From a virus: 56,891 bases of DNA. This document shows, piece after piece, positions 11,284 to 56,891 of this stretch. A program made the translations under genes and the position numbers. The notes below the pieces were generated by a model that saw nothing but the letters and a program-made list of their open reading frames with translations, was not told where the DNA came from and searched no databases. The stretch spans positions 1 through 56,891 of the IMG/VR virus record IMGVR_UViG_3300024261_000036. One strand, written 5' to 3'. How positions within the stretch are numbered: the first letter of the stretch is position 1; every line of letters starts with the position of its first letter.

Positions 11284-11492
11284 TCATCTCTCTTTTCACA
11301 TGCGTAAAAATGGTTGTCCCCATTTAAATCCATGGGAAAATCATTATCATCATTATCTACGCACCATACAAGTCGAGCACCACACTTTGAGCAGTTTAGA
11401 TTCTTGCCGGTGAGCCATTCAACGAGTGTAACCATGCGAACATGCATGTCTTCAATGAACTCATCAATCGATACCTGTCTGTCGTTGTCCAT
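11271..11492 (-). CDS. Small CxxC protein, 73 aa
   Basis: An N-terminal helical part (SIDEFIEDMHVRMVTLVEWL) is followed by CSKCGARLVWC (34-44) and YACEKR near the C-terminus, giving a likely zinc site. GAGGGCTACCC precedes the ATG. It overlaps the end of the helicase-loader gene by 29 bases. Function unknown; position suggests replication or regulation. Confidence 0.6.
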   Translation of the reverse strand: MDNDRQVSIDEFIEDMHVRMVTLVEWLTGKNLNCSKCGARLVWCVDNDDNDFPMDLNGDNHFYACEKRDEWQN

Positions 11493-12315
11493 GGGTAGCC
11501 CTCATGCTCATCTTTTCGTCGGAAATCACCCATCCGCTCCCCCCTGATTCTTTCAAATGAAGCATTCTGTCCAGCATATCGTTACCGAAGACCGAATCGA
11601 AGCGTTTTTTATCGACGCATCTCGTCGTAAGTATGGTCCCACGGTAGTGGTCTGCTCTTTCACAACAAATCATCAGAACATTCCGCACACTCATGGCTGA
11701 ATCGCCAGCCGAGCTGAGAGACAGGACCTCATCGAGCGTGACGATGCCGGGGAGATCAATGATTTCCCTAATCTGAGCCTTTCCCTCCTCGGTAGACGAT
11801 ATCATCGACCATTCGCTACGCTGCACAAATCTTCCACGAGTTCGGTATGATGCCCATGCGCCGCATACCGTTTTACCGCTTCCATTGTGTCCAGCTAGGC
11901 ATAGAAGTCCTTTGTTCTCTGCATCAAAATACTTCCGGGTAGCGATTGTGAGGGACGTATCTCCGGGGAGCTTTGGGTCAGGGTCATTGGGGGACACTCC
12001 GATTACAACCGCAGCAGATGCCGGGAGACCAGACCTCCTGCATCGATTACGAAGCCTCTCCTTCTTGTTTTCTTCTTCCATCTTCTGCTGCTCTGGATCG
12101 ATCAGTTCCTCGCCTTCAATGCGTCGAAATGACTCCTGACAGCTATCGCACATGCAGTTCTCGGTGCCGATATTAAACCTGAACGCATGGGAAACAATGT
12201 TGTCACAGTGGTAACATTTTACATTTTGCTCAAAGCCAAAGTCGAGCTTGTTTGGTGATCTCTGCGTGTGCGGTTGCCTCTTCCTCAGTTCTTCTATGTG
12301 TTTACTTTTGTCCAT
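11464..12315 (-). CDS. DnaC-like AAA+ helicase loader
   Basis: The 283-residue protein has an N-terminal cysteine cluster (C34, C37, C54, C56, C59) as in zinc-bearing primosomal proteins. It is followed by an AAA+ ATPase core with Walker A GHNGSGKT (142-149) and Walker B GIVTLDE (190-196), then the Arg-containing TTRCVDKKRF region. Such proteins load the replicative helicase at the origin. It follows directly on the initiator gene (14-base overlap) with GGGAGGATTATC before its ATG, in the same order as lambda O then P. No phage helicase of the DnaB type is seen, so it probably recruits the host helicase. Confidence 0.85.
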   Translation of the reverse strand: MDKSKHIEELRKRQPHTQRSPNKLDFGFEQNVKCYHCDNIVSHAFRFNIGTENCMCDSCQESFRRIEGEELIDPEQQKMEEENKKERLRNRCRRSGLPASAAVVIGVSPNDPDPKLPGDTSLTIATRKYFDAENKGLLCLAGHNGSGKTVCGAWASYRTRGRFVQRSEWSMISSTEEGKAQIREIIDLPGIVTLDEVLSLSSAGDSAMSVRNVLMICCERADHYRGTILTTRCVDKKRFDSVFGNDMLDRMLHLKESGGSGWVISDEKMSMRATHGQRQTGID

Positions 12316-13561
12316 GATAATCCTCCCAGTCCTTTCTTGTTGCGAATCCTTCGTCTCTCCACGGTCCCCATGAGCCTGCGTCCGCCTGAGATGTGCCCTC
12401 AGAATACATCATCAGCCACTTCTCAAAATGCTTCGCCAAATACGACCAACCGCTAAACTTTCTGCGCTCCACCCAGGTGTCGGTGGCCATTCCGCGAATG
12501 GCCTTGCAGACATCGGACGGAGTATATCCATCAGTCAAAACGATCTGTTTGGCCATTTTTTTAACGGACTGTGATTCAGGCTTAAGCTTCGTGCCAAAGC
12601 AGTCACCGTGAACGGATACGAAGGCAGATAACACATCGTAGTGTTTCGAAGAAGTGCTCCTGGGCCACTCATCGCAGGAGCCAGACTCAACCTCAGCGAC
12701 ACTGGCCGAGTACCGCTTGGAATCCTTTTCTTTTTTTTGTGTCTTTTTTTTCTTTTTGTTTAAACAGTTTAGATTAGAATTAGAAGAATTCTTAATTGGA
12801 TCAATTAAATTAATTCTAGATGAATCAATTAAGAATTCTTTATTACTCTTATTTAAATTATAATTATAATTAATTAAATTAGAATATTCAAATTTAGATA
12901 CAGCAGATTTGGACCCGGCCGAATCGCCATCATCCGCCTTAACATCCTGATTTACATAACCTTCCACCGGAAACCCCCCTTCACCGTCCGCGTAGACGTC
13001 TACATTTTTTGCCTGTAGACGTCTACATGACTCATCGCGTTGTTCTTTGTTTTCAGTGGGTTGCGCGATGTAGACGTCTACATTTGGCTCGTGTAGACGT
13101 CTACATTTCGGGCCTTCTCCATGTGTGTCCTGAGTGTTTTCGGTGCCTTGCGATGTTGAGCCCTGCTCATTTTTGTCAGAAACACCGACGACTTTCCGCC
13201 TATATCGTTTCTGTCTTTCGGCTTTCCTCTTTCTTTTCTTGGGGATAGACCCAGTCCAATCGTCCCAGCCGACAACTTCGACCGTTTCGGAATCCACCAA
13301 TCGCAGCAAACCAGCATCAATCATCCGGCGAACCACATCAGCTTTGGGCTTGAGGCTTCCTGAGAGCCCCTCTGAGGCGATTTCAGCCATCCGGGTATAT
13401 CCCAGGGTACCAGAGGGGTGTTTATCAAGCACACAGGCCCACACAGAGACCAGCCAGCCAACGGTCTGGTGGATGTTTTTCCGCCCCCTAAATGCCTGAC
13501 TCAGTGCGTCAATCCGCTCGTCTTTGAAGATTTCACCTGACACCAATACGACGCTTCTCAT
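12302..13561 (-). CDS. Replication initiator protein (lambda O/DnaD-like organisation) containing the origin
   Basis: 419 residues. The N-terminal 110 form a winged-helix-like domain (MAEIASEGLSGSLKPKADV, VVRRMIDAGLLRLVDSETVE) of phage replication initiators. Residues about 140-290 are low complexity: two CRRL-x-x-x-NVDVY-type repeats encoded by the palindromic iterons, then an Asn/Lys/Ser-rich stretch encoded by the AT-rich DNA. The C-terminal part (YDVLSAFVSVHGDC to AKHFEKWLMMYSEG) resembles DnaD/O-like C-terminal domains. It would bind the repeats in its own gene and hand the origin to the loader encoded next. The start ATG follows GGCGGTGA. Confidence 0.8.
   Translation of the reverse strand: MRSVVLVSGEIFKDERIDALSQAFRGRKNIHQTVGWLVSVWACVLDKHPSGTLGYTRMAEIASEGLSGSLKPKADVVRRMIDAGLLRLVDSETVEVVGWDDWTGSIPKKRKRKAERQKRYRRKVVGVSDKNEQGSTSQGTENTQDTHGEGPKCRRLHEPNVDVYIAQPTENKEQRDESCRRLQAKNVDVYADGEGGFPVEGYVNQDVKADDGDSAGSKSAVSKFEYSNLINYNYNLNKSNKEFLIDSSRINLIDPIKNSSNSNLNCLNKKKKKTQKKEKDSKRYSASVAEVESGSCDEWPRSTSSKHYDVLSAFVSVHGDCFGTKLKPESQSVKKMAKQIVLTDGYTPSDVCKAIRGMATDTWVERRKFSGWSYLAKHFEKWLMMYSEGTSQADAGSWGPWRDEGFATRKDWEDYHGQK
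12720..12900. other. AT-rich candidate DNA unwinding element
   Basis: Within the initiator gene, about 180 bp are almost pure A/T, with tracts of T and A and TTAATTAA-type words, directly downstream (in coding sense) of the iterons. A 15-bp inverted repeat (arms 12783-12797 and 12825-12839) is embedded. Lambda-type origins have the same order: iterons first, then an AT-rich segment that melts. Confidence 0.7.
12783..12839. repeat. 15-bp inverted repeat in the AT-rich region
   Basis: AAGAATTCTTAATTG (12783-12797) and CAATTAAGAATTCTT (12825-12839) are exact inverse complements with a 27-bp AT-rich spacer. They could extrude as a cruciform in supercoiled DNA near the melting point of the origin. 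Confidence 0.8.
12992..13104. other. Replication origin iterons: four GTAGACGTCTAC palindromes
   Basis: The 12-bp palindrome GTAGACGTCTAC occurs exactly at 12992-13003, 13015-13026, 13070-13081 and 13093-13104; three copies extend to the 14-mer TGTAGACGTCTACA. Spacing is regular: 23 bp within each pair and 78 bp from pair to pair, about two helical turns within a pair. They lie in the initiator gene next to the AT-rich element, so they are probably the initiator's binding sites. This reading combines direct sequence and the lambda model; binding itself is inferred. Confidence 0.8.
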
Positions 13562-13653
13562 CTTTTTTCACCGCCCACAGTTTTTGCTATTGACTTAGCG
13601 ATTGCAACGTGACAGCTTTGCCGTCAAAAGTCAACACAGAAAGGATAAACATT
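13562..13653. promoter_or_regulatory. Divergent promoter region between the replication and recombination operons
   Basis: About 90 bp separate two divergent genes. A TTGACT element is present on the plus strand near 13590, but no good -10 follows at 17 bases. The region must hold promoters for at least one direction. No operator repeat stands out. Confidence 0.4.
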
Positions 13654-14631
13654 ATGCTGAAGAGAGAAATGGGGATCGGCGGCACAGACATAGCAGCGAT
13701 CATGGGAGTCCACAAATACAAAACAGCTCATGACGTATTTATGGACAAGACGGGGCGCTCTGCGCCTCTCGCCATGAACGAGGCTATGTATTGGGGGTTG
13801 AAGAAAGAACCCATCATTGCAGACAGATATCAGGAAGACCACCCAGAGATCACTCTGGTTAGAGATCTCGGGATAATGAAAAGCCCCAAGCATGATTGGT
13901 GGCTGGGTTCCCCGGATGGACAAATCGAAAAGGGCGGAAACGTCATCAGGGGTCTGGAGATCAAAACGGGCTCTGTCTACCGAAAGAAGGAATGGGGTGA
14001 CGAAGGAACCGACCATATCCCTCGCGAGTACCTGATGCAGTGTATGTGGTATATGCCCCTTCTTGGCGTGAATGAGATGCACGTTGCCGTTTTGCTTGGG
14101 CAAAGGGACTACACAGAGTTTGTGGTGAAAAGAGACAACGACCTTCTCACCATGATGTACGAATCTGGCAAAGACTTCTGGGAAAACTATGTAAAGAAGG
14201 ACATGCCGCCTCCGACTGATGGAAGCGATGCGTGTAAGGATTACATGTCTGAGAAATATCCCGAGGCATCTGACGATATGCTGGACCCGGATGATGGCAT
14301 CCATGATCTGGCCGCTCGTTATAACGGTATTAAAACACAAATAGGGCTCCTGGAGGAAGAGCAGGAGAAGCTCAAGAACATTTTCAAGAAGGAGATTGGG
14401 GAGAAGAAGGGATTCACTTGTGACGATTGGCGTGTGACCTGGACAAATCGGAAGTCAAACAAGAAAACCGACTGGGTCAGCGTGGAGGGACACTTTGTTA
14501 GGACGCTTGAAAAGTCTGGTGTCGACGTAGAAGAGGCCCAGAGCATTGTTCAGAAGATCATTAAGTATCACACCACCGGGGGCGTAAGGTCTGAAAAGCG
14601 GGCATTTACTTTTAGATGGAAGGGAGAATGA
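13654..14631 (+). CDS. YqaJ/lambda-exonuclease-family recombination nuclease
   Basis: 325 residues with the motifs of the PD-(D/E)xK phage exonucleases: GIGGTDIAAIMG (7-18), GSPDG (85-89, catalytic Asp 88) and LEIKTG (101-106, Glu and Lys), then a YLMQCMWYM segment with the conserved Gln. It degrades one strand of dsDNA from ends to give a 3' overhang for the annealing protein encoded next. I chose ATG 13654 (AAAGGATAAACATT before it); a GTG at 13609 lacks a ribosome site. A C-terminal helical stretch (LEEEQEKLKNIFKKEIGEKK) is predicted coiled coil. Confidence 0.88.
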   Translation: MLKREMGIGGTDIAAIMGVHKYKTAHDVFMDKTGRSAPLAMNEAMYWGLKKEPIIADRYQEDHPEITLVRDLGIMKSPKHDWWLGSPDGQIEKGGNVIRGLEIKTGSVYRKKEWGDEGTDHIPREYLMQCMWYMPLLGVNEMHVAVLLGQRDYTEFVVKRDNDLLTMMYESGKDFWENYVKKDMPPPTDGSDACKDYMSEKYPEASDDMLDPDDGIHDLAARYNGIKTQIGLLEEEQEKLKNIFKKEIGEKKGFTCDDWRVTWTNRKSNKKTDWVSVEGHFVRTLEKSGVDVEEAQSIVQKIIKYHTTGGVRSEKRAFTFRWKGE

Positions 14632-14632
14632 G

Positions 14633-15352
14633 ATGAGTAAAGAAAACACAGGGGAAAGCGGAGAGATCGTGGAAAAGGCCATTCAGAAAAAAGACACCAG
14701 GGAAAAGTCCATTCAGAAAAAGGAGGACATGTTGGTCAACGGGACCGGCATCCAAATCACATCAATGAACGAGTTGCAGCGTTTTTGCAAGATGGCTGCG
14801 GCTGCTAAGGTTTTTAAGTCCACTACCGATTTAGCCAAGGCGTGCATGATTGCCCAGTACGGGATGGAGATGGGCGTATCTCCGGCGACCGCACTGCAAA
14901 ACATGCATATGATCGAGGGACGTGTGTGCATTGGAGCTGGCCTCATGGCTGGCCTAGTTAAAAGGACCGGCAAGTACAGTTATAAGATGACTGAGCACAC
15001 CAGAGAGGGATGCACCCTGGTCTTCATCGAGAAGGACGTTGGGGAGCTGGGCGTGTCGTGCTTCGACCGCGAAGACGCGATGGCCGCAGGCCTTCTGAAT
15101 AAGCACAACTGGAAGAAGTGGCCCAAGGCCATGTTCTACAGTCGGGCGCTATCCATGGGAGCACGCATGTTCTGTGCTGACATGTTCGTGGGCGCTGCAG
15201 TCCACACCCCGGAGGAAATATCCGGGGGAGAATACATCGACCATGCATTCGCAGAAGCATGGGGCATGGAGTCACCTGAGCAAAACACTAAAGAAGTATT
15301 CAGCGTAGCTGAAGATTTGAAAGAAGAACTTAAAAGAAAGGCAACGAGATGA
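14633..15352 (+). CDS. RecT-like single-strand annealing protein
   Basis: 239 residues, one base after the exonuclease gene. The core reads CMIAQYGMEMGVSPATAL, GRVCIGAGLMAGLVKR and WPKAMFYSRALSMGARMFC (about 163-181), the pattern of phage RecT-type annealing proteins. The protein coats single strands left by the exonuclease and anneals them to complementary DNA. The N-terminus has two near-identical short charged segments (AIQKKDTREK, SIQKKED). Pairing with a YqaJ nuclease strongly supports the call. Confidence 0.75.
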   Translation: MSKENTGESGEIVEKAIQKKDTREKSIQKKEDMLVNGTGIQITSMNELQRFCKMAAAAKVFKSTTDLAKACMIAQYGMEMGVSPATALQNMHMIEGRVCIGAGLMAGLVKRTGKYSYKMTEHTREGCTLVFIEKDVGELGVSCFDREDAMAAGLLNKHNWKKWPKAMFYSRALSMGARMFCADMFVGAAVHTPEEISGGEYIDHAFAEAWGMESPEQNTKEVFSVAEDLKEELKRKATR

Positions 15353-38344: not shown

Positions 38345-41300
38345 CAGCTTCCTCTGCCTCCGCCGCCGTTCCACCAGTTAGACCCTGACTTGGTCGTGGG
38401 GAACGGGGTTCCACCTTGCGCCATGTGGTCCCTTGATGATTTCTCTGCAATCATATTAGCGAGCTGGTCTGGGTTGGTCGCATCATCTATTCTCATCTCT
38501 CCTATGTTGATGATCATATTATTGCCACCCATTAATGAGTCTGTCGCCATGCTTCTACCCATGAACGCGGAGCCCATGGGTCCTGCCCCACCGGGCATAG
38601 CGCCTGGATCGAGCATTTGACGTGTCAGGTCTGCGATGTCTTTAGCAGCGCCCTCGAACGTGGCCGCGACACCGTCCAGGACAGAACTCCACCTCTGTGG
38701 GTCCGTAGCTTCTGACAGTTTGCTCAGGATTTCGTCACCGGGGGATGAGCTGCTAGATAATGCACTGGCGAAAGCGCTGGACATCCTGCTGAAATACTCG
38801 CGACCGGAAAGATCGAGGATATTGCCTCCGCCGCCCGCCGAAACTCCGCCCACAGCGTCCATCGCCTTGAATCTATGAAGAGCGACCTTGAACCCTGAAG
38901 GGACGTTGGACAGGCTTTCACCGAACTCTTTCGCGTTTTTATCTTCGTCTGCCTGATCGGCAAGAGCGTTTGCCCTGGCGTCGGCCTCTGCCTCAGTCGA
39001 TTTAAGCAGGTCTCTCATTTTTTCATGCATCTTATCAAGGTCAGGCATCATGCCGTTGAGTCCATCAATAACAGATTGGTTTAACTCATCGAAGTCTGGT
39101 ACCAGGCCATCGGCTGCAGCTTCGGCGTCCTCTGCTGCGTTGTTTAGACCAGTAGTGACCGGTGAAAGGATGGCTGGGCCGGGGATCAACTCATCTATCT
39201 CCTTGAAGATGTTTGCCAGTCCGCGCATTAGCCATGCAATGACATTGACCACTCCCTGCGCAATGGTCTCCATCAGGTTGCCCATAAACTGGTGGATCGG
39301 ATTGCCAAATCCCCCAACAAGTATGCTCAATACGCCAGAGACAAAATACCCAATCCCAAGAAGCAGCATTCCGATTCCGACTGCCAGCATCTTGAATCCC
39401 TGGAAGAGCACACTGGAAAGTCCTGCACCGTTCGCGAACGATCCTGCAAGCGGCAGCATAATGTCCATCAAGTAATCAAACAGCCCAACAAGTGGCATTA
39501 CGGCTCCCCACAGCGGGTCAAGAGCCATGACGATCTTGTCAATAGACACGGAAAGCGCATCTTGCGCCCTTCCGCGTTGAGACACATAATCATCATCAGC
39601 GAACTTGGGGTCCTTAAACAGGAGGGCCGTAAAGAATCCACCGAGGGCAGCAGTGAGGATGCCGAGGCCACCTGTCAGGATCCCTGCAACGCCGAGGATA
39701 AACAAGGCAATGGCACCAAAGAGGAGTACCAGTGGCGGGATAATGACACTTGCGATGCCCGCGATTGCCAACACTACGGCAACGATGGTTGCGACAATAG
39801 CTGCGATAACAGCAAAGACTATGCTGACGATGGCAAGAGCCAGGAAGCCGATGGCCGCTATGACCGGTGCAAATATTACAACAAAAGCCAAGGCTGCGGC
39901 TATCATGATGGGAGCCACAATGCTTGTCACGAGCAGACCGACGCCTGCTATAACTGGTCCAAATATCATTGCGAAGGCTGTGGCTGCAGCCAAGGCGAAG
40001 GCAGCGACAATGGCAGCCACAACATGTAAAATGCCTACCACAATGGCAGCGGCAATGGTGACAATGGCACCGACAATAATGGCAGTGGTAGTAGCGACCG
40101 TGCCGACAATGGAGGAGACAATGGCACCGGCGACGGTCGCAATGGCACCGAGAATAGCAGCAGAAATCGCAGCAATGGCGGCAGAAGCAGCTATGACGGG
40201 GGCAAGTGCAGATCCGACTGGAAGGCTTGCTTGCCCGCCCATCCTTACCGCATCGGAAAGCCTTTGGTCCTCAACCACCTTGTCCATCTGGTCGGCCAAA
40301 GAGTCGGCCATCTTCTTGAACGCACCGGCAGTGTTATCGAATATAACCTTGGCGGCCTTTTTGGCCGCATTGACAATGGCCTTGGCGGCTTTGCTTGCCG
40401 CCTTGCCTAGGACCGGCACCATTTCGACAATTGCCCCGGCAAGTGCCCCGATAGCTGCGCCTATGAGGGGGGTAAACTCAGTGATGGCGTACCCGATGCC
40501 TCCGCCGATGACGGCTCCCCATCCGCCTACAGCAGACGTCAGGGCTGTGCCAACGGTGACCCCAAAAGTCACTGCCGGCCCCTGCATGGTTTTGGCCCAC
40601 GGTGCCAGCGCTGTTCCAATCGCACCGCCGATGCTGGCAAAAACCCCGGTAAAAGCTCCCGCTATTTTTCCGCTCGCTTTGGAGAGACCAGTTTTCAGCG
40701 CGCTGGCCATCCCCTCTTTGACGGGCTGCTCCATGCCCTTGAAGAACTTTGCCGACTTAAAGCTGCCGAATATCCCCTCGGATATCTTATCAAGGCTACC
40801 CTTAATCTCAACCTGCGGGTCTATTACCTTGATACTATCCCATTCAAGCGCAACCTCGTCTGCCCTCTTGGCTATATTGGCCATGACCTCTACTAGCTTG
40901 TTCTTTTCAAATTCAGTGCCGGTCGCGTCTACCTTTTCCTGAAGGTGCGCGAACGCCTTGGCAAGTTCCTCGGGTCTCTTGCTCACATCCTCTTTTGAGA
41001 GAACCTCGGCAAGCCCCTCAACCCTTAGACCTGCGAACGTCCCGGCGAGCTTCTTGGATTCTTTCCCCAGCTCATCCAGCCTCGCTTTATCCTCGGCGTT
41101 TACCTTGAGCCGCTCAAAGACCAGGCGAACCTTCTCGCTTTCCTTTTCACTTGGCTTCAGTGTCTTATCAAGATCGGTCTTTTCTATCTTGACTTCTATC
41201 TTTTTGATCTCAAGGCGTCGGAGTCCTTCGGATTTCTTCTCTAGATTGTCCCTGCCACCAGCAATGCCTTCAATGTCGCCCATGAGCTTGAGCATCTCCT

Positions 41301-53174: not shown

Positions 53175-54569
53175 CTACACAAAGAAAAACTCCTGCACGC
53201 CCTCGTCAGCCAGTGCCATGACCACGGCGTCTGCCTCATCTGGCGACTTAACCCCTCGTTTCTTCATATCTTCTTTCGATTCTATCTGGAGCAGCCCCCT
53301 TGAGTTTATCTTGAAGCGGATGGCCGTCAACTGCGCCAGCAGGGATTGTGAGCTGGGCATAAATACCCGGTAGTCGCCGTTGGGATCTAACTTCTTCCTC
53401 GCCGTGAAGTACCATTCAGCCCTCTTGTTAAGGTAACGCTCGTTCTCCGTGGCCCGCATTCCACCCCGCATTTCCACCACCACGTTCCCGAGTTGCTCCC
53501 TTAGCCGGTCGAACACCCCGGCTCCAAGTCCGTCTGCATCTACCCGTATTTCGTCCACATTCTGGAACGCCCCCTTGTCATTGAATGCCTTGATGATATG
53601 CCCCACTGTCTCCATAGTGTCTGCCTTTGGGGCGCGGACCACCTCCGTTATGCCGTCTTCACTTGCGAACGCGAACACCGTATGATCGGCTCCGAATCGG
53701 GCCACATCAACAGCCATAACCAGTCGCTTCTTGCTTCCCACCTTATTATTCTCGTAGCGGGACATCGCAGCCTCAGCCCAGGATAGCGGCACCACTACTG
53801 AATCCGCAGCCTCTGGGAAGTTGCCCATCACACGGCTCTGCCACATTGGGGTGCTTTCGTCCCACTCAGCCTTGCGCTCATCCACCCATTCCTTGGTGCA
53901 TAATCCAGGGATAAGAGACTTGCCAGCCTTGACATTGGGAACGTCATACGCGCTGATGTGGAACTTCGCGATGTTCTCACTATCTGTCTTAAACAGGTTG
54001 TAGAATGGGCCAGACGTTTCGGTGGGGTTGCCAATGCAGAGCAGCCGGTCGTGCTCACCTACGATAACACCCCGTGCCGCGTCCCAGATATCAGGCGCAA
54101 TGCCGGGTGCCTCATCGAAGATGGCGAGTATTCCCCCAGGGCTATGCCAACCTTGGAAGCTCGTGGGGTCATCCGTACTAAAACCCACGCATAACCATTC
54201 ATCGTCCACCACCAGCCGGGGCGCTTTTGGCAACAGCTCACCACCCAGCCCAGGTCCTCCGACTATCTGCTCCGCCCTCTTGTGGGACTTGCGTATCTCC
54301 TTCCATAGAAGGTCCGTAACCTGCCGACCCGTTGGTGCCGTCGTTATAACGGTGGAGAATGGTCTCGTATAAAGCCACCAAAGTGCGAGCTGGGCCGCAA
54401 GGAATGTCTTTCCGCTTCCATGACAACTGCGGACGGCTACGATGCGGTGGTCGTTTAGGCCGTTTGCGATTTGGATCTGCTTTTCCCAGAGCTTTGCGCC
54501 GAGGACGTGCTCGATAAAAAGCTCTGGTCTTTCCTGTAGTTCTACTACTTGCTTCCTGCTTAGATTCAT
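53175..54569 (-). CDS. Terminase large subunit (TerL)
   Basis: 464 residues. ATPase part: Walker A CHGSGKT (49-55), Walker B LAIFDEA (148-154), coupling motif GNPTETSGPFY (180-190). Nuclease part: MAVDVARFGADHTVFA (Asp 288), RVDADGLGAG, SPDEADAVVMAL near the C-terminus. It packs DNA into the prohead and cuts it. I chose ATG 54569 with TTTAGGA close before it; a longer frame to 54632 adds an unlikely extension. Confidence 0.93.
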   Translation of the reverse strand: MNLSRKQVVELQERPELFIEHVLGAKLWEKQIQIANGLNDHRIVAVRSCHGSGKTFLAAQLALWWLYTRPFSTVITTAPTGRQVTDLLWKEIRKSHKRAEQIVGGPGLGGELLPKAPRLVVDDEWLCVGFSTDDPTSFQGWHSPGGILAIFDEAPGIAPDIWDAARGVIVGEHDRLLCIGNPTETSGPFYNLFKTDSENIAKFHISAYDVPNVKAGKSLIPGLCTKEWVDERKAEWDESTPMWQSRVMGNFPEAADSVVVPLSWAEAAMSRYENNKVGSKKRLVMAVDVARFGADHTVFAFASEDGITEVVRAPKADTMETVGHIIKAFNDKGAFQNVDEIRVDADGLGAGVFDRLREQLGNVVVEMRGGMRATENERYLNKRAEWYFTARKKLDPNGDYRVFMPSSQSLLAQLTAIRFKINSRGLLQIESKEDMKKRGVKSPDEADAVVMALADEGVQEFFFV

Positions 54570-54625
54570 TCCTAAATTCCCCTGTCTTGATTTATGGACT
54601 GTTATAACTGTATAAGAACATATAT
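54570..54625. promoter_or_regulatory. Divergent promoter region between TerL and the small plus-strand genes
   Basis: AT-rich 56-bp region. On the plus strand TTGATT is followed 17-18 bases later by GTATAA/TATAAG near 54612, a fair promoter. The late operon promoter on the minus strand may also lie here but is not clear. Confidence 0.4.
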
Positions 54626-54868
54626 ATGCCATACGACAACAATGGTAAATGCATACACCTCTATAAACAAATGGGGCGTCATGATGATGGGAAAATATTC
54701 CGCTGCGAACACTGCGGAGTAGCGGTGAAAGCGAAGGAGAATAAGCCTATGTTTGACAGTGACATGCGGCTGCTGCGTGATGACGAGGCGATGGGCAATG
54801 ACGAAGAAAAAACCAGCATCGGAATGGGTGATAAAAAAGCACATCCCGGAGATCCTGAGGCTATATGA
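54626..54868 (+). CDS. Small CxxC protein, 80 aa
   Basis: Reads NGKCIHLYKQMGRHDDGKIF then RCEHCGVAVK, giving a possible Cys/His zinc site. Its ribosome site is weak (ATAAGAACATATAT), but the protein looks real. It overlaps the next gene by 71 bases in another frame. Function unknown. Confidence 0.55.
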   Translation: MPYDNNGKCIHLYKQMGRHDDGKIFRCEHCGVAVKAKENKPMFDSDMRLLRDDEAMGNDEEKTSIGMGDKKAHPGDPEAI

Positions 54869-55645: not shown

Positions 55646-56812
55646 TCAAGCATCTAGCTGCCCGATGCATCCTTTTTCCTCATCTATGATATAAGCCGAC
55701 AGCACACGCTTGCTGCCCACAAACCCCTTACGACTGTGCCAGCGGTCTGTCCCGGATAGACTCCCCATCTGGTACATCATCACACCTTTGTGTTCCTTGA
55801 CCTGCTGGTGGTGCAAATGCCCCGAGAAGACCATCCGGTGTTCTGCCTCACCCCATTCTTGCGCAGCCTCATACGCCATGATGCCTGGGATATCCGTACT
55901 CCTGGCGCTGTCACCATGGGTCACGCAAATCAGGCTATTGCCATAAGTCACGTACTGCCGCTCCGCAGGAGTCGTGGTTGTGGTCACGCCTTCCGTATCC
56001 TTATACATATGCGTCAGCAGAGTCATCAGCCCCAGACTGGATGTCCGGTCATGGTTACCCGGCATGAATATCAAGTTGATGCTAGGGCAAAAAGACCGCA
56101 GCATCTCCACGAAATCCACAAAGAGCTGGCAGCCTTCAGAGAAAATCTGCGCATAGCTGCCATCCGTATCCTGTGGCGTACCCGCAGTTGTGGTCCCGCC
56201 ATCCGTATCAATGTGGAACCAGTCTGAACCAACCCCAACATACATCACATCCGGCTGACCATACTTGGCAACCAAACTCAGCAGGTCATCCGTCCGCTGC
56301 ATCAGCAGCGTTCTTGCCTCATCCCGCGAATAGCCCGTGTTCGTCTCAACCGACCACCCGTATTTCCCATAATGAAAATCAGTCGGCGTACAGAAAACCG
56401 CAAATGGATCTTGGTCCTTCTTCAGCTTCAGCTTCGGGAGCCTGGGCGGTGCCTCTATCTGGATATCCTGTATCGGCAGCCGGTCACCCTCAATCGCACG
56501 GATATGCCTATATATCCAGCCCTCGATTATACGGGGCCGTCGCTTATCCGTCTTCAACACATAAACATCGCGGGGAGCATCATAGTAACCCTTGTCAGCC
56601 TTGTGCGCCTCGTTCCGCTCATCGTCTTCATGCAGAGCCTCGATGTCATCAAGGACAGACTCCCTCGCATTGTCATCTACATAGTACAGATAAGCCCCAT
56701 ACAAAGTGTCCCACTTGCGCTCAACCGTGCCCCTGCGCCCACGTTTGCGTAATGCCTCCGGGGAAGATATCCCCAAAAGACGCGAGGCCTCCGGTGCCTT
56801 GTGCCATGCCAT
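55646..56812 (-). CDS. Calcineurin-like metallophosphoesterase with HTH-like N-terminus, 388 aa
   Basis: Metal-binding motifs in order: TDFHYGK (Asp 145, His 147), GSDWFHID (Asp 197), PGNHD (Asn 253, His 254), THGD (His 299), SGHLHH (His 331, His 333). Residues 1-35 (SRLLGISSPEALRKRGRRGT) look like a MerR/winged-helix DNA-binding turn. Phage enzymes of this type may cleave nucleic acids or cyclic nucleotides; the substrate is not evident. GAGGATACATGAT precedes the ATG. It is last in the minus-strand cluster, continuing across the contig join from the 68-residue gene. Confidence 0.85.
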   Translation of the reverse strand: MAWHKAPEASRLLGISSPEALRKRGRRGTVERKWDTLYGAYLYYVDDNARESVLDDIEALHEDDERNEAHKADKGYYDAPRDVYVLKTDKRRPRIIEGWIYRHIRAIEGDRLPIQDIQIEAPPRLPKLKLKKDQDPFAVFCTPTDFHYGKYGWSVETNTGYSRDEARTLLMQRTDDLLSLVAKYGQPDVMYVGVGSDWFHIDTDGGTTTAGTPQDTDGSYAQIFSEGCQLFVDFVEMLRSFCPSINLIFMPGNHDRTSSLGLMTLLTHMYKDTEGVTTTTTPAERQYVTYGNSLICVTHGDSARSTDIPGIMAYEAAQEWGEAEHRMVFSGHLHHQQVKEHKGVMMYQMGSLSGTDRWHSRKGFVGSKRVLSAYIIDEEKGCIGQLDA

Positions 56813-56891
56813 ATCATGTATCCTCTGGGTTAATCACCGCAGACTCAATGACGTTCAAACATTGGGCAGGCGTGCGCTCCGGGAAAGACAG
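56766..56891. repeat. Right copy of the 126-bp terminal direct repeat
   Basis: Identical to 23-148. It closes the map into a circle and includes the start of the metallophosphoesterase gene and the end of the 68-residue gene. Confidence 0.95.

Follow-up and report, generated by a model that had tools for sequence, protein, structure and literature searches.

Here, we have analysed the 56,891-nucleotide IMG/VR record IMGVR_UViG_3300024261_000036 (hereafter the window) and describe what is, judged from its sequence, a lambda-type intragenic origin run by an initiator that falls outside Pfam's lambda-O family. It is very likely that this is the replication origin of the circularly assembled tailed phage represented by the record, and that it is built into the part of the initiator gene that encodes the protein's linker. 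An origin inside the initiator gene had been proposed in the original prediction and stands as the best reading of the locus, given the iterons, the A/T-rich tract, the gene order and a layout that is kept in relatives. The sites themselves, their non-chance nature, the tract, the order of the genes and the recurrence in relatives of the same layout around different iterons are all direct observations. As phage origins go, this one is of an ordinary kind, with good support and in a new setting. It extends the lambda layout, in a group of uncultured phages, to an initiator that does not belong to the lambda-O family. The comparative series that has come with it has greater value than this one site, and its most interesting point is an apparent joint exchange of the DNA-binding domain and the iterons.

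The initiator gene, its iterons and its A/T tract

The initiator gene (12302..13561, minus strand) encodes 419 amino acids, made up of an N-terminal DNA-binding domain (residues ~1-125), a linker encoded by the iterons and the A/T tract (~150-275) and a C-terminal domain (~300-419). The earlier identification of this gene as an initiator is supported by a match to PHROG 9474, 'replication initiation protein' (E=2.3e-8), in which residues 29-155 align with positions 26-151 of the profile and the C-terminal half of the profile is left unmatched. The N-terminal domain also aligns with L063, a Pseudomonadota prophage-like protein found via PHROG 9474 (shuffle z=9.3). Structure predictions for the N-terminal domains compared here were too uncertain to use (pLDDT 62 and 55) and matched nothing informative. 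No Pfam family was detected in the protein, and hence no PF04492 (Phage_rep_O, lambda O), a family which the same search found with an E-value of 3.5e-27 in a more distant phage described below, in agreement with the view that the iteron is unrelated to lambda's and the initiator is not lambda O. The 3' end of the gene is overlapped by 14 bp by an AAA+ helicase-loader-like gene (11464..12315, minus strand). Its own AAA match is weak, and the call of a DnaC-like loader is upheld via an ortholog in a related virus (33% identity over 239 aa) that matches the PHROG DnaC-like helicase loader (E=6e-9).

Four exact copies of GTAGACGTCTAC lie within the initiator gene at 12992, 13015, 13070 and 13093, spaced by 23, 55 and 23 bp as had been claimed. 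In coding order these are iteron 1 (13093..13104), iteron 2 (13070..13081), iteron 3 (13015..13026) and iteron 4 (12992..13003). All are perfect palindromes of 12-16 bp, the longest being the 16-bp palindrome at 13068-13083 around iteron 2, with two of the others extending to 14 bp. The rest of the 57-kb genome holds no exact copy. When up to two mismatches to GTAGACGTCTAC are allowed, one additional site appears in the window, and since shuffled sequence averages 0.93 such sites, four exact copies within 113 bp are far above chance.

Beyond the iterons in the coding direction is the A/T-rich tract (12720..12905, 82% A+T), a candidate unwinding element, as had been predicted. Its core at 12803-12902 reaches 88% A+T, compared with 69% in the next-best 100-bp window of the contig, which makes it the genome's only extreme tract of this kind. 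One correction to the earlier account is needed, in that the A/T core starts ~90 bp past the last iteron. Synonymous recodings of the same protein gave at most 78% A+T in the tract, and third-position GC is 0.17-0.20 here against 0.4-0.7 elsewhere in the initiator gene. Inside the tract lies a 15-bp inverted repeat of putative function (12784..12840, arms 12784-12798 and 12826-12840). The repeat, noted in the original prediction, is perfect and uncommon for a tract of this kind, being equalled by one of 300 first-order shuffles; a cruciform at this position is only a possibility.

Proposed mode of action and comparison with lambda

Given this arrangement, a plausible course of initiation can be set out. 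Dimers of the initiator would bind through the N-terminal domain, one dimer to each of the four GTAGACGTCTAC palindromes, and the bound array would wrap the DNA and strain the neighbouring A/T tract until it melted. The C-terminal domain would then hand over the AAA+ loader from the next, overlapping gene, and the loader would place a DnaB-type helicase on the single strands, after which theta replication would begin. This helicase would be drawn from the host, because the phage is without a DnaB of its own (a domain search of its genome found no DnaB_C domain). Iteron binding, melting, loader delivery and actual origin activity are, on our analysis, most likely what the locus provides for.

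In lambda, the O protein binds to four iterons situated in gene O itself, an A/T-rich tract is opened, and DnaB is brought in by a loader (PMC3349717, PMC7466680). Within gene O, the four lambda iterons, of 18 bp each, adjoin an A/T-rich sequence of 38 bp (PMC3349717); they are imperfect inverted repeats, and the minimal O site is a 19-bp imperfect inverted repeat (PMC7466680). The window resembles lambda ori, with its genes O and P, in that the origin lies midway along the initiator gene and comprises four dyad-symmetric iterons with an A/T tract downstream, and in that a helicase-loader gene comes next. Stx phages P27 and 933W share the lambda-type layout but have six iterons rather than four. 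There are also differences from lambda. The initiator of the window is not a PF04492 protein, its iterons are perfect 12-bp palindromes of unrelated sequence arranged in two pairs (23/55/23), and its A/T core stands ~90 bp away from the iterons whereas that of lambda adjoins them. The loaders differ as well, since that of the window is AAA+/DnaC-like and lambda P is not known to be.

Relatives and the apparent joint change of domain and sites

Direct searches of viral contigs and phage records with the initiator found no homologues, and a search with the large terminase subunit was used instead, which led to 80 related viral contigs. Two of these, G668 (IMGVR_UViG_3300008954_000065, 57.3 kb) and G666 (IMGVR_UViG_3300025770_000070), carry a homologous initiator C-terminal domain, 34% identical to that of the window. 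A profile of this domain revealed no further relatives among viral contigs or the other terminase relatives, and a loader profile none among ~650 bacterial genomes. G668 is colinear with the window across most of the structural half (71-92% DNA identity), and its early region is recognisable at the protein level only. There, the loader is 33% identical to that of the window, and in both relatives synteny extends to the genes for a YqaJ/RecE-like exonuclease and then a RecT-like annealing protein, recombination genes which in the window occupy 13609..15352 on the plus strand, divergent from the initiator.

Both relatives have, on the same strand and in this order, a 91-aa ORF with a basic tail, four iterons, an A/T tract, the C-terminal domain and the loader. 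The main departure from the window is that their initiator is split into this 91-aa N-terminal ORF and a 197-aa C-terminal ORF (L190:7236-8255 in G668; L191:7547-8566 in G666), with the iterons at and between the break and the in-frame stop of the 91-aa ORF sitting within the first iteron in both viruses. This arrangement suggests that binding to DNA and recruitment of the helicase can be tasks of two separate proteins. The four iterons, ~20 bp each, also differ from those of the window, being dyad-symmetric GTAAG-N7-CTTAC elements at a pitch of 31-32 bp in the same slot. Their GTAAG/CTTAC arms are intact in all eight copies, even though the two viruses differ at 8 of 116 bases. In G668 the motif occurs at the iteron array only, and it is absent from the window. 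An A/T tract follows ~110 bp past the iterons and is the strongest window of the region in each case (0.78 in G668 and 0.76 in G666). The original prediction had named relatives with an initiator and no palindromes as an outcome that would count against an origin. GTAGACGTCTAC is indeed absent from G668 and G666, but each of these viruses combines an N-terminal domain unlike that of the window with four iterons of its own at the corresponding position, and this favours an origin.

Alignment of the 91-aa ORF with the window's N-terminal domain is only marginal (z=2.8, p=0.018). Since the C-terminal domain and the loader keep 33-34% identity over the same comparison, the DNA-binding domain and the iterons have apparently changed much more than the rest, and have done so together. 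That relatives keep the layout but use other sites likewise points to a linked change in the initiator's DNA-binding part and the sequences it lands on. A true cassette swap may be one explanation for this, and fast co-divergence may be the other. If the DNA-binding domain and iterons form one cassette swapped as a unit, the A/T tract, C-terminal domain and loader would stay in place, the swap could turn a fused gene into a split one with the iteron giving the stop, and an unrelated phage of high GC content could have acquired or retained a GTAGACGTCTAC cassette of 23-bp pitch. We regard this proposal as a little short of probable.

Two further phages extend the comparison. G672 (L210), whose terminase is 43% identical to that of the window, is the phage with the PF04492 match mentioned above. 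It has in-gene iterons (about CAAGGGTTGWACAA), an A/T tract and a downstream DnaC-like loader in the same order as the window, but its initiator is a true PF04492 protein and its iterons are unrelated. The second was found by scanning 2.9 million viral contigs for an exact palindrome pair with a gap of 5-35 bp, which returned one further contig, L005 (L107, IMGVR_UViG_3300034149_000221), from an unrelated phage of 70% GC. The gap in this pair is exactly the 11 bp of the window, i.e. a 23-bp pitch. The full array (L107:11366-11533) has four copies at a pitch of 23/23/24, of which two are exact, one has one mismatch and one has two, and is located in the linker of a 341-aa initiator-like ORF. 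The peptides encoded by the palindrome pairs of the window and L005 are alike (RRRLQDNGVDVY and CRRLQAKNVDVY). The likeness thus covers the GTAGACGTCTAC site, its pitch and its position in a linker, whereas the GC content, the two degenerate copies, the lack of a local A/T tract and an N-terminal domain that does not align with that of the window (z=0.8) set L005 apart. The 341-aa protein has no family match, and it is its layout that marks it as a putative initiator. No homologue was found that has both the DNA-binding domain and the palindromes of the window. Together, the window, G668/G666, the lambda-O version in G672 and the same iteron in L005 represent a natural series for the co-change of initiator and binding site.

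Scans of the viral contigs with the half-site and inner half gave chance matches only, in tail, integrase and other genes. In bacterial genomes, no recurrent palindrome was present in the ORF examined at each locus with a PHROG 9474 match. A scan of bacterial genomes for paired TAGACGTCTA returned met-box-like sites, probable LacI-type operators, tandem repeats and other sites; most contexts were without annotation, and none was seen inside an initiator gene.

Other possible functions for the palindromes and the wider genome

An operator function for the palindromes, bound by the initiator or another repressor for the control of transcription rather than for replication, needs to be considered first. 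In two Rhodobacteraceae genomes (L033:6617-6659 and L037:5731-5773) the palindrome core occurs as paired ATGTAGACGTCTACAT with 31-bp spacing, between genes for a LacI-type regulator and an aminomethyltransferase-like protein, a pair that is probably an operator. The core can therefore serve as an operator, which keeps such a role as a minor rival, and autoregulation by origin-bound initiators is common. In the window, however, ~460-570 bp of coding sequence separate the sites from the start of the gene, which places them well away from the divergent promoter region at 13562-13608, and they lie beside the one extreme A/T tract of the genome. The same slot in relatives, moreover, keeps four different iterons and an A/T tract, and taken together these observations make an operator function improbable. 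The core AGACGTCT of the MetJ operator is also present. Met boxes are adjoining tandem 8-bp AGACGTCT boxes, and the spacing of 23/55/23 rather than 8 led us to reject this candidate.

A repeat in the protein, selected or duplicated, might also have produced the palindromes as a side effect, as the linker contains two copies of CRRL...NVDVY. The two 37-bp iteron pairs are 86% alike, so one pair may derive from the other by duplication. Several findings speak against the protein as the cause, however. GTAGACGTCTAC is read in two reading frames, twice as VDVY (iterons 2 and 4) and twice as (C)RRL (iterons 1 and 3), with all twelve bases identical while the spacers differ. With the amino acids fixed, the exact 12-mer is expected with a probability of ~1e-2 at each VDVY site and ~6e-4 at each CRRL site. 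When the initiator was recoded synonymously 5000 times, with the genome's own codon usage and the same protein kept, the 12-mer was not reproduced: 12-bp palindromes with at least three copies arose in none of the 5000 recodings and with two copies in five. It is thus the DNA that has been kept and not the peptide, and protein selection cannot explain the palindromes. The similar peptide encoded by the L005 pair, in an otherwise unalignable protein, points in the same direction. We therefore consider a protein repeat very unlikely as the source of the palindromes, and the suggestion that the NVDVY linker peptide is itself a by-product of them is borne out by the recoding control. Finally, palindrome arrays are typical of partition or centromere sites, but such a site, on a plasmid-like prophage, is scarcely credible here, as the phage genome has no match to the ParB_N domain (PF02195) and the gene hosting the palindromes is an initiator with its loader next.

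The record very probably represents a complete circular assembly of ~56.7 kb, because its ends form a terminal direct repeat (1-148 and 56744-56891; ~125 bases exact, with seven differences in total, at the outer end) and the sequence corresponding to the end junction is continuous in G668. Such a terminal direct repeat indicates a circular or circularly permuted assembly. Cumulative GC skew tracks gene direction and reaches its extremes near 21 and 54 kb, and four-fold sites gave no replichore signal, so that skew lends the origin no support. A scan of 12001-13700 detected no DnaA boxes. Among the products encoded are large terminase, portal, head and tape-measure proteins, as well as the YqaJ/RecE-like exonuclease, RecT-like protein, a Dam methylase, helicases, SSB, a Holliday-junction resolvase and a dUTPase.

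Two other repeat clusters were observed. Within the tape-measure gene (40041-40151) are four copies of CAATGGCACCGG at a spacing of 21/57/21, the sole other four-copy repeat cluster in the window. The relative G666 has eight copies of GCGGGCGGTTTGCA at an alternating pitch of 21 and 32 bp (L191:15118-15311), beside an A/T-rich stretch. The large terminase (53175-54632) finds its best match among named phage records in Caudoviricetes sp. vir525 (37% identity), a record assigned to Methanosarcinales hosts.
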